Part shown: piece after piece, positions 11,544 to 36,106 of the stretch
Layout: every line of letters begins with the position of its first letter
Position numbering within the stretch: the first letter of the stretch is position 1
NCBI GenBank assembly: GCA_021835025.1
Contig: JAKBQY010000032.1
Location: 1-36,106 of the forward strand
DNA length: 36,106 nucleotides
Source of the DNA: Thermoplasmata archaeon
GTDB taxonomy: Archaea; Thermoplasmatota; Thermoplasmata; Thermoplasmatales; Thermoplasmataceae
Reading direction: 5' to 3'
Notes under the pieces: generated by a model
The model's input: only the letters and a program-made list of their open reading frames with translations
The model's database searches: none
Told to the model about the DNA's origin: nothing
Position numbers and translations under genes: made by a program

Positions 11544-11556
11544 ATTAACAAAATTG

Positions 11557-11815
11557 AGCGAGAAATCCCCTTCTGAAAGGAGGGGATGAAAGCGAAATCT
11601 TTATTTACTTTTTGCAATAGTACATTGCCAATCAGCAGACATAATGTAAAAAGGTCGGATCACATATAGCTCCATGCGTGCATGTGCCCGTAAAGTCGAA
11701 TGACTTAGCATGGAGGGCAAAGTACCATCGGGCCGAGGGGAATTCAGGCCTGTGGAGGTTCCGCTGGTAACCGTCGAAGCAGGAAGATCCTTTCGAAAGA
11801 TAGGGGAGGAGGTCA
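11557..11815 (+). mobile_element. Decayed IS605/IS1341-type (TnpB) element
   Basis: The left end is a hairpin ATCCCCTT/AAGGAGGGGAT (11565-11587) followed by GATGAAAGCGAA, the same end signature as the miniature element at 21512-21655. After a deletion, one plus-strand frame reads like the C terminus of a TnpB protein (LSMEGKVPSGRGEFRPVEV, then VTVEAGRSFRKIGEEVT), interrupted by a TGA at about 11698. The right end GGGGAGGAGGTCAC resembles the other element's right end. No catalytic part of TnpB remains, so it cannot encode a nuclease; a residual omega-RNA-like transcript from the 3' part is possible. Boundaries are approximate. Confidence 0.6.
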
Positions 11816-13042
11816 CATGTCTCCCTCATTTAAAAGTTCAGGATACATATCCTTTATTTTAGATATGTTCATTTTGAAACTTTTAAGAATTGAAATAACT
11901 GTGAATGAAGTTATTATGGTTATTATTCCAGCTATAGCTATAATATATGGGAAATATAAAAATTTTGATAATATTCCAAAAATGAATGCCATTGCTGGTG
12001 ATGATCCAATTGAAAACATTGCTGTTATTGAGTTGAACTTACCTGTTATGGCACTGGGTATTCCATTAATTAATAGTGTTTCCAGTTCAATATTTATAAA
12101 TGCCAATATAATTCCTATTATAAATGTAAATAATGAGTCCAAAATCGGTACTCTGTTTAATGAGATTAAAATAAGTAAAAAACCAAGAAATAAAACGTAT
12201 ATTACCATATATTTTTCATTTCCATATAATCTAGAATACATTTTTCTTGTCGATATTATTCCACCCAAAAGCATACCGGCGGGATAACCCAGAATCATCA
12301 ATGTATAATATATTGAAGACGCCTTCATTATAATATGTATTAAACCTGCAGAAAAAACATCAAGTGAAATAAATAAACCATTTAAAAGCATCAAAAGTAA
12401 AAGAAAAGGGATTATTCTTTTCATTATTTTAAAACTGTATTTGAATCCATTACTATTATATTTGTATTTATGTATTTTCCTTGCATTTAAATTTAATATA
12501 ATTACCAATGATATTATTGATATTATGACCAAAAAATAATACATAAAGAAATGATTTATAAAAATAAAAAATCCGCCCAGAATTATACCAAAAAACATTG
12601 CAACTCCCCTTGAAGTTTGATCCATTGACTGAGCATTTTTTATGTTTTCTTCAGGTATAATTTCCTTTGTTATTGCTCTGAAATCATCGGATATTACCCA
12701 CATTAAAAGTGATGAAAAAAAGTCAACAGAATAAATGATTAAAAGACTATTTTTTATAAATAATACTGAATAAATTATTATTGAAAATAAGTTCAACAAA
12801 ATAAATACCTTTTTTCTGTTATATTTATCTATTATGTAACCTTCAGGGATTGCAACTATTAAATAACCGAGTAGTGAAAAAGCAGGTATTAAACTAACAA
12901 GAAAAACGGAATAATATTCATTAACGATAATCCACATAAAATAAATATAAAAGATCATGTTTGCAAACGTGGAAATATTTCTTGATATCAAAAAAAGTAT
13001 AAACGGTTTTTTATTATTTTTATATAAATTTTCTTTATACAT
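11813..13042 (-). CDS. MFS transporter
   Basis: Polytopic membrane protein of ~409 residues with roughly twelve hydrophobic segments. The loop between helices 2 and 3 contains GYIIDKYNRKKVF, the MFS motif A (G...D..GRR type). Substrate unknown; drug or metabolite efflux is typical. The frame is open to an ATG at 13126, but those extra 28 codons are a 36-bp tandem repeat overlapping the end of the PIN gene, and a TATA-like ATTTATATATA lies within it, so the ATG at 13042 (MYKENLYKNN) is chosen. The stop codon is at the right end of the TnpB-type remnant, which probably supplies it. Confidence 0.8.
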   Translation of the reverse strand: MYKENLYKNNKKPFILFLISRNISTFANMIFYIYFMWIIVNEYYSVFLVSLIPAFSLLGYLIVAIPEGYIIDKYNRKKVFILLNLFSIIIYSVLFIKNSLLIIYSVDFFSSLLMWVISDDFRAITKEIIPEENIKNAQSMDQTSRGVAMFFGIILGGFFIFINHFFMYYFLVIISIISLVIILNLNARKIHKYKYNSNGFKYSFKIMKRIIPFLLLLMLLNGLFISLDVFSAGLIHIIMKASSIYYTLMILGYPAGMLLGGIISTRKMYSRLYGNEKYMVIYVLFLGFLLILISLNRVPILDSLFTFIIGIILAFINIELETLLINGIPSAITGKFNSITAMFSIGSSPAMAFIFGILSKFLYFPYIIAIAGIITIITSFTVISILKSFKMNISKIKDMYPELLNEGDM

Positions 13043-19701: not shown

Positions 19702-19833
19702 TATTATCCATAGGTAAATAAATATAGATATTTTAAAATTTGTTACCTTTTCAAATTTACTCAATGAAGCATATTAAGTTTACAAATCAAATTATAAACT
19801 AAAAATTTAATATTGTTAATATTATCGTATTAT

Positions 19834-21513
19834 ATGCCAAAGATAAAAATAGTTGCAACAATAGGTCCTGCTAGCTTTAATGAAACAATTTTAAAGAATA
19901 TGGCCAGAAAGGGGCTTTCAGTTATCAGGGTAAACACAGCACATACAGAACCAGGTTATATAACCAGTGTATCAAAAATGATCGATAAGATCAATGCAGA
20001 TTGCGGTACAAAGATAGGTTTAATGGTTGATTTAAAAGGCCCTGAATTGAGAACAGGCAATTTTCCCAATGGTAAGTTAACAATCAATTCCGGAAAGAAA
20101 TACATAATCACGGATAATGATAAAATAAAGCATGACATACTGATAAATCACCAGTTTATTGAGTATATTGACGATAATACCATTATAGCAATAAATGATG
20201 GAAAGATGCACTTCAGGGTTACTGATATAAAGGACGGTTATGTAGTTGTTGAGGCACTTGATTCAGGGGAGATACATAATACATCCCGCGTTAACATTCC
20301 TGGAAAATACATAAAACTTGGGACAATGACCGACCGCGATTTGATCTTTTTAAATGAAGGATTATCCATAAATGCCAATTTTTATGCCCTTTCCTTTGTT
20401 CAGAAAAAGGAGAATGTATATGATTTGCAGGACTATATTTATGATAAGCATGGGCGTGGTGAAATCATAAGTAAAATAGAAACGAAAAGCGGTTATGACA
20501 ACATAAAATCCATAGTTAACGCATCCGATTATATTATGGTCGCAAGAGGTGACCTAGGAGTCGAACTTCCGTTAAAAGAGGTGGTAATGGCCCAGAAAAA
20601 TATAATTAAGGAAGCCCATAAAAGGGCAATTCCAACAATAGTAGCAACGCAGATGCTTGAATCCATGGTTTTATCTGATTCACCTACCCGGGCTGAAGTA
20701 TCCGACGTAACAAATGCAATTCTTGACAATGCCGATGCCCTGATGCTTTCTGAGGAAACGGCAATTGGAAAATATCCCTATGAGGCAGTATCGTATTTAA
20801 CAGATATTTCAGATTTTGTTGAATCGGACAAAATTGACCTGATTGAACCTGAAAATTCATTCACGGATAAACTGGCATTTTCAATTTCAAGGGGTTTGAG
20901 GAAGATCACAGAAGGAATTGATATAAAATCATTAATAGCGGTGACGAAATCTGGTTATACTGCAAAAATGATTTCCGCAATGAGGCCTGAACAGGATATA
21001 TACGCTGTTGTAACATCGGAATGGCTTGCGCGTGGTTTAAATTTAATGAGGGGTGTTCAACCCGTTGTACTTTCTGAAAGTTTTCTTAGTTCCAGCAATA
21101 TTTATGATATAGTTGCTGAGCTTGTAAAAAATAAGCTTATAGCAACAGGAGAGAAAACAATAATAGTTTCCGGTTCTCCCTCGCAGGTATTTGGAGGGAC
21201 AAATGATTTAAAAATTGTGAATGTTGGTAAATTCATCGGCAGGGGGTATGCTGTGGGAAAAAATATCAGGGGGAAAATTGACATAAATGGCGGTGGAAAT
21301 GGCAATATCCTGTATCTTGATAACTATGTAAAAGATATGGATTATTCAAAATATGATGCCATATTGATTAAATCATACATCACTGGCAGAATTATCAATT
21401 ATTTTATAGAAAATAAAAAAACACTGTTATATAATGTTGAGTTGGCAAAAAATATAAACAATAATATGGAGATCAGCATTGATTCAGATACTGGCCTAAT
21501 TACGTATATGTGA
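19834..21513 (+). CDS. pyk: Pyruvate kinase with C-terminal swivel-like extension
   Basis: Converts PEP + ADP to pyruvate + ATP. The start MPKIKIVATIGPAS is the usual pyruvate-kinase beginning; VNTAHTEPGY, LMVDLKGPELRTG, IISKIETKSGYDNI, MVARGDLGVELP and MLSEETAIGKYP mark the catalytic barrel. At 559 residues it is ~90 longer than standard. The extension (after about residue 465: GRGYAVGKNIRGKI, then ILIKSYITGRIINYF) resembles the PEP-utiliser swivel domain of some bacterial pyruvate kinases but lacks the T-S-H-A histidine motif. The ATG at 19813 is an alternative. Its stop codon lies at the edge of a miniature TnpB-type element. Confidence 0.93.
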   Translation: MPKIKIVATIGPASFNETILKNMARKGLSVIRVNTAHTEPGYITSVSKMIDKINADCGTKIGLMVDLKGPELRTGNFPNGKLTINSGKKYIITDNDKIKHDILINHQFIEYIDDNTIIAINDGKMHFRVTDIKDGYVVVEALDSGEIHNTSRVNIPGKYIKLGTMTDRDLIFLNEGLSINANFYALSFVQKKENVYDLQDYIYDKHGRGEIISKIETKSGYDNIKSIVNASDYIMVARGDLGVELPLKEVVMAQKNIIKEAHKRAIPTIVATQMLESMVLSDSPTRAEVSDVTNAILDNADALMLSEETAIGKYPYEAVSYLTDISDFVESDKIDLIEPENSFTDKLAFSISRGLRKITEGIDIKSLIAVTKSGYTAKMISAMRPEQDIYAVVTSEWLARGLNLMRGVQPVVLSESFLSSSNIYDIVAELVKNKLIATGEKTIIVSGSPSQVFGGTNDLKIVNVGKFIGRGYAVGKNIRGKIDINGGGNGNILYLDNYVKDMDYSKYDAILIKSYITGRIINYFIENKKTLLYNVELAKNINNNMEISIDSDTGLITYM

Positions 21514-21655
21514 CATCCTCTCACGACTAAAGCCGTGGGCTTCCTGCTTCGCAGATGGGTACAACCTAAACTTATATGCTTTCATTATATCTAACACTTT
21601 AATTCGCTTTCATCCCACCCATAAATGGTGTGGGTTTTCCCGCCCACTGTGATAA
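21496..21655 (-). mobile_element. Miniature IS605-type element (TnpB start fused to right end)
   Basis: Read on the minus strand: left-end hairpin around 21614-21634 (CCCAC/GTGGG-type stem), the shared GGGATGAAAGCGAA, then ATG at 21585 opening MKAYKFRLYPSAKQE, the N terminus of archaeal TnpB. This passes in frame directly into the right-end hairpin GCCCACGGCTTTAGTCGTGAG and GAGGATGTCA. So the whole middle of tnpB is deleted, leaving a 29-codon fusion frame (21496-21585). The element proper is about 21512-21655 and lies between the convergent pyk and aldehyde dehydrogenase genes. It would need TnpA in trans. Confidence 0.75.
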
Positions 21656-21659
21656 ATAA

Positions 21660-35997: not shown

Positions 35998-36106
35998 ACT
36001 CCGGTTGATCCTGCCGGCGGCCACTGCTATCAAGTTCCGACTAAGCCATGCGAGTCAAGGTATCGTAAGATGCCGGCATACTGCTCAGCAACACGTGGAT
36101 AATCTA
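35998..36106 (+). rRNA. 16S ribosomal RNA, 5' end (partial)
   Basis: ACTCCGGTTGATCCTGCCGG is the universal archaeal 16S 5' end, and the following bases (GACTAAGCCATGCGAGTCAA, then TGCTCAGCAACACGTGGATA) are the conserved first helices. The gene continues beyond the window. In Thermoplasmatales the 16S, 23S and 5S genes are known to be unlinked, which fits its standing behind its own promoter. Confidence 0.97.

Follow-up and report, generated by a model that had tools for sequence, protein, structure and literature searches.

The window, the whole stretch of 36,106 nucleotides that was analyzed, carries a gene at 19813–21513 (plus strand), which we take to be pyruvate kinase-like, and a convergent neighbor that is presumably aldehyde dehydrogenase-like. 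Between the two lies a 142-bp element (21510–21651, minus strand), an ends-only IS200/IS605 element recognized by comparison with ends elsewhere in the same genome, by a covariance-model match to 21510–21651, and by empty sites in relatives. Read along the minus strand, the target/cleavage pentamer TTTAT (21652–21656) adjoins the left end without target duplication. It is followed by an intact left-end hairpin, CCCACACC-ATTTAT-GGGTGGG, with GGGAAAA before it (21614–21634); a single ATGAAAG (21579–21585), which is at once the scar of a leader deletion and the start codon and which full elements have in two copies 26 nt apart; tnpB codons 1–11 (MKAYKFRLYPS, 21553–21585); the direct repeat AGCAGGAA, the site of the tnpB deletion (21541–21548); and a right-end hairpin (21520–21539) with one broken stem pair (CGTGAG in place of CGTGGG). 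The left hairpin (21634–21614), the TnpB start, and the right-end hairpin (21539–21520) can be read directly on this strand, as a preliminary description of the locus had reported. From the tnpB start, a 29-codon chance frame (21496–21585, minus strand) runs through the right end into host DNA, outside the C-terminal frame of TnpB. The pyruvate kinase-like frame stops at a TGA codon inside the element, and the protein consequently ends in ...TYM where it would otherwise end in ...TYI, a change that probably has no effect.

The limits of the element were set by comparison with ends in its own genome (65 contigs, 1.68 Mb, 96% complete). A 160-bp query from the window gave 58 matches (40 of 86 candidates scored), and a renewed search of all fetched stretches gave 33 left-end rows, the window copy counted, and 22 right-end rows besides that of the window. 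Right ends agree through ...GGATGTCAC or GGAGGTCAC and diverge after ...GTCAC, and all 22 of the others have GAAG on the 5′ side of the right hairpin. Left ends are preceded by TTTAT (21/30), TTTAA (7/30), or ATTAT (2/30); the rule by which guide and cleavage site pair reportedly comes from work on IS608. Because the right ends diverge after GTCAC and the left ends start after TTTAT or TTTAA, the element spans 21510–21651 and not the 160 bp (21496–21655) first assigned to it; the remainder is target on one side and host DNA on the other, where 21496–21509 is the end of the pyruvate kinase-like gene and 21496 merely the stop of the chance frame. The element has near-terminal imperfect palindromes like those of IS605-type elements and no terminal inverted repeats, makes no target duplication at a fixed short target (TTTAT, TTTAA, or ATTAT at 30/30 left ends), and with 142 bp and a 29-codon frame has a coding capacity too small for a transposase. 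It is a palindrome-associated transposable element (PATE), an ordinary transposase-free miniature of an already known kind, which at best could be mobilized by TnpA in trans.

Both ends are shared with two TnpB elements of the same genome, C2 and C55, and this match bears out the view of the element as a non-autonomous IS605-type derivative. C2 has an unbroken 406-codon TnpB frame between ends of this family, and C34 has an intact tnpA-tnpB pair (Y1_Tnp, 1.3e-35; TNB, 1.9e-26; OrfB_IS605, 1.7e-23). Genome-wide, PF07282 has 12 matches, 10 of them above the cut-off, and PF01797 has two, one carrying a stop, so that a single unbroken Y1 match is left. In the full frames shown, such as those of C2 and C34 (L023 and L039), the TnpB stop codon falls within the right-end hairpin (EAGSPRL* or EAGSPRF*); one stretch thus serves as C terminus, transposase site, and 3′ stem of the omega-RNA. 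C34, the sole element with an intact tnpA, has a left end altered by another insertion sequence. Such insertions lie in the left-end-hairpin loop of TnpB elements at C2:20015–20411 and C52:9044–10208 (L023 and L048) and also in C34; they have ends of the form CAGTAGATC..., the C52 copy carries a DDE_Tnp_1 transposase, and they apparently made a TTTA duplication. PATEs of Haloquadratum are likewise reportedly attacked by other small elements.

Two deletions distinguish the 142-bp element from full copies. Compared with other tnpB starts that have the leader, it is missing 26 bp, flanked by ATGAAAG repeats and immediately upstream of the start codon, a loss that the preliminary description overlooked together with the broken right-stem pair. 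The other deletion removed most of tnpB and joined what was left to the right end at AGCAGGAA. Among 17 tnpB starts compared, including that of the window, 14 others reach codons 11–15; none of these 14 has the GCG AAG CAG GAA found in the window at codons 11–15, and they read TCN GAR CAG GAA (SSEQE). C34 has GCGAAGCAGGAAGCCC in its right end, and, in register, the window matches tnpB through CCATCT and then, from GCGAAGCAGGAAGCCC, the right end in its C34 form. Because GCGAAG occurs in 0/14 tnpB starts and is present in the C34 right end, only 11 codons derive from tnpB, and AKQE, formerly counted among its “first 15 codons,” is right-end sequence. The breakpoint of this internal deletion lies in or after codon 11, inside the direct repeat, and not right after codon 15. 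Nor is the fusion in frame, as had been supposed: the element reads the right-end hairpin as ...KQEAHGFSRERMSHIRN, in a frame different from the EAGSPRL of TnpB.

The tnpB/right-end junction lies in a shared 8-bp repeat, which is more than expected by chance: in C2, 1.6e-4 of the possible tnpB/right-end junctions have 8 bp in common. In both C2 and C55, AGCAGGAA is the sole repeat of at least 7 bp that the right end shares with the 5′ stretch of tnpB. C34 has no repeat of at least 7 bp between its own tnpB start and right end, and because its right end nevertheless fits the junction GCGA best, we leave the exact parent of the 142-bp element unassigned. Another deletion derivative, C17:121862 (366 bp), used the same right-end repeat, joined from a different position in tnpB, and also lost its leader, at ATGAAAGC.

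A second PATE in the window (11549–11816, plus strand) has kept an omega-RNA-like core (11646–11816; 186.8 bits, E 2e-49), this copy being itself one of the 59 rows of the scaffold model that scores it. It belongs to a class of miniatures of ∼204–282 bp in the same genome, with the ends of TnpB elements and an interior that is not tnpB. Alignment A1 holds 59 cores, namely 64 from loci and the window copy at 11646 minus six decayed ones (L100, L140, L141, L143, L144, and L146); L145, truncated, had been left out earlier, and these omissions favor the structure statistics. The consensus structure has 26 pairs, with 94.8% of 1451 cells paired. Its covariation score was 0.419 compared with 0.243 in shuffles (0/500 as high) and 0.065–0.140 in slid versions. 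Double changes occurred at 11 of the 26 pairs, a count reached by 171/500 shuffles, and 110/500 shuffles were as high in further pair types; these two of the five measures are therefore not above shuffles, and kinship among rows inflates the remaining three.

The model, built from the 59 miniatures alone, also matches the 3′ ends borne by tnpB elements (C59, 66.1 bits; C34, 60.2; C2, 53.2; C55, 52.5; C64, 51.7), with 10 TnpB-adjacent places in the genome at 48–66 bits. The parts in common are a hairpin located 5′ of GAAUUCA, a stem formed by CCUGU/GCAGG, and the right-end hairpin, which in full elements is also the 3′ hairpin of the omega-RNA. The miniatures thus have the fold and sequence of tnpB 3′ ends together with compensating base-pair changes; no TnpB source was found for the 5′ half of the core. 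A comparison of the window and of four loci carrying such elements with Rfam gave, at the gathering score, no family other than tRNA and 16S rRNA; the start of an archaeal 16S rRNA gene lies at 35998–36106 (plus strand), at the contig end.

Two coding explanations of the core were considered. Of 42 gap-free rows, 35 have an open tnpB-like frame, as a microprotein might require. Because differences number 8065/7687/6671 on codon positions 1, 2, and 3 and the synonymous fraction is 0.277 compared with an expected 0.255, coding in the core was rejected. We also rejected a full-length protein ending in the core peptide, for which there were matches in 23 of 61 genomes: the longest stop-free frames had 568, 453, 311, and 241 amino acids, and of the two loci inspected for these four (L088 and L092), L088, the only one to pass the filter, reads through a miniature into an unrelated gene that we presume to be oxidoreductase-like. 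Overall, the results indicate that the miniature core is structured, covarying, non-coding, and homologous to the 3′ omega-RNA region of TnpB elements.

These scaffold-bearing miniatures are numerous. At least 67 places in the genome match the scaffold model at E up to 1, and at least 28 copies reach 80 bits (150 of 245 candidates scored in each case); all of these 28 are more than 300 bp from any PF07282 match, and the closest such match is 2,422 bp away. A model match follows within 600 bp downstream in 16 of the 33 left-end rows, and 13 of these retain the scaffold (at least 51 bits). The three that do not (below 25 bits) are C17:121862, C55:76612, and the 142-bp element of the window, each different in structure. 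A form of 204–205 bp with one common internal deletion is found at C46:7711, C58:6981, and C65:22827 (L046, L038, and L052), as if it had spread after that deletion. Within the family, a DNA search with one miniature gave matches, some of them ends-only, in 28 of 61 genomes; across genera the miniature interior is conserved and the end hairpins change. Within the class, the scaffold model has matches in 43 of 250 genomes, 42 of which also match PF07282 (the exception being G114, E 9.9e-4) compared with 154/250 overall, an association that is partly built in because the model also picks up tnpB-borne RNAs. Among the matches listed, 12 genomes have one above 100 bits, and all 12 have PF07282 matches.

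We then consider the insertion site of the 142-bp element in five aligned genomes. The site is empty in three (G002, G011, and G027), and G001, of the same genus, carries at the identical site and in the same orientation a decayed insert of 277 bp that is not the same element (L056:1707–1983, G001:C19). Because this insert occupies exactly the same site, the history of the locus may exceed one insertion and two deletions. The common ancestor of this archaeon (G000) and G001 could already have carried a scaffold-bearing PATE or TnpB element here, of which the present inserts would be separately altered descendants, unless recombination between the ends they share put one in place of the other. 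The shared position and orientation of two IS605-like inserts, each with GAAGCAGGAAGCCC, next to empty sites in the three other genomes, speak for such an older occupancy, as does the weak likeness of the G001 insert to a decayed scaffold-bearing element (14.6 bits, E 0.01 in 69 kb). The inserts are, however, unequal in length (142 and 277 bp) and unlike nearly everywhere outside the right end, and no second copy of the 277-bp insert was found in G001, so that we consider an older occupancy possible but doubtful. It is very unlikely that the element has been retained for its hairpins as a transcription terminator: although its position is precisely between two convergent frames, one of which takes its stop codon from the element, it is absent from three related genomes and its right stem is decaying.

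The preliminary description had also suggested that the element may still yield a guide-like RNA end, which TnpB could use. Against the scaffold model the remnant scores 19.5 bits, compared with 48–66 for the 10 TnpB-adjacent ends and 80–204 for 28 scaffold-bearing miniatures; the deletion has taken away the scaffold 5′ of GAAGCAGG and, as part of it, the CCUGU strand of the long-range stem, together with the stems 5′ of the right-end hairpin by which a functional omega-RNA (reRNA) is recognized. Of the parts shared with TnpB 3′ ends, the remnant retains only GCAGG and the final hairpin, in which one pair is broken, and so it lacks what is conserved in the rest of the family. A guide-like RNA end is extremely unlikely: the terminal 45 nt survive, with the 3′ hairpin and with GTCAC beside the would-be guide, and give the remnant its 19.5 bits under model R1, but the stretch with hairpin 92–95/103–106 and the CCUGU strand is gone, a right-end stem pair is broken, the leader deletion brings the ATG beside what is probably a TATA-like stretch, and no further copy of the remnant's form was found in its own genome (40 of 86 candidates scored) or elsewhere among 61 genomes (at most 10 candidates scored per genome).

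Overall, the results indicate that the 142-bp element is very probably a dead derivative of this archaeon's TnpB-bearing IS200/IS605 element, reduced to an ends-only PATE by two repeat deletions. A full copy or its ancestor would have inserted beside TTTAT between the two convergent genes, without target duplication, as is evident from the empty sites of the relatives, and presumably via Y1-transposase chemistry. Judging from the scars, two deletions between short direct repeats would then have removed 26 bp of the leader and ∼1.1 kb of tnpB and omega-RNA scaffold. What was retained corresponds to the cis requirements of TnpA (the target flank, both hairpins with the AAAA and GAAG stretches on their 5′ sides, and the terminal TCAC), and the genome's single intact TnpA could in principle move the element in trans. 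A peptide or a working guide RNA from the element is unlikely, and we think that it is inert DNA decaying in place. It provides a clean, small example of how an archaeal PATE originates, through two short-repeat deletions, one of which used a repeat 5′ of the right hairpin.

We propose, tentatively and as a reading with somewhat less than an even chance of being right, that the scaffold miniatures, with both ends, a promoter-like leader, an omega-RNA scaffold, and no protein, could be mobile guide-RNA genes, which would depend on borrowed TnpA for movement and on borrowed TnpB for cleavage of the empty site that their flank specifies, leading to retention or copy-back; the ends-only kind would have lost the scaffold and stays single. 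Use of the miniature RNA by TnpB in trans is suggested by homology, structure, and position. If true, a scaffold without a nuclease gene would be under selection in mobile DNA. The ends-only element is of wider value as a natural null against the numerous scaffold-bearing miniatures of the same archaeon. Standalone omega-RNAs are known for IscB. We found no literature on guide-RNA-only IS605 miniatures, a weak negative because subscription papers were mostly outside coverage. TnpB has been described as a retention and drive device (PMC11870625), and the terms non-autonomous, in trans, and MITE are absent from the accessible part of that paper. If the scaffold pays via TnpB in trans, the idea that TnpB aids persistence could be tested with an element one-fifth as long as usual.

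Among known systems, the PATEs of Haloquadratum walsbyi (PMC3119063, accessible part) resemble the present elements in having IS605-related near-terminal palindromes, no inverted repeats, and no target duplication, and some arose by repeat-mediated deletion of the core, as here. H. walsbyi belongs to a different archaeal class, and the accessible part of that paper makes no mention of a covarying RNA core like that of the present miniatures. A PATE-like element of Halanaerobium hydrogeniformans also has IS605 ends without a transposase and, in the portion of the report available, is described as retaining the last 58 nt of tnpB and a 160-nt right end (PMC7290912), unlike the 142-bp element, in which the tnpB start is kept and the scaffold is gone. 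TnpB7 of a Sulfolobus islandicus IS605 element, a tested nuclease, has the TAM TTTAA and a guide directly after UUCAC (PMC11043419, accessible part); the target found here, TTTAT/TTTAA, and the predicted RNA end, GUCAC, run parallel to it, but that system is a full tnpB element, unlike the present miniatures. Finally, the omega-RNA of ISDra2 TnpB derives from the tnpB 3′ end and the right end and forms a multi-stem scaffold, according to the accessible part of PMC10097598; compared with it, the 142-bp element is without the scaffold, and the miniatures have the scaffold without tnpB.
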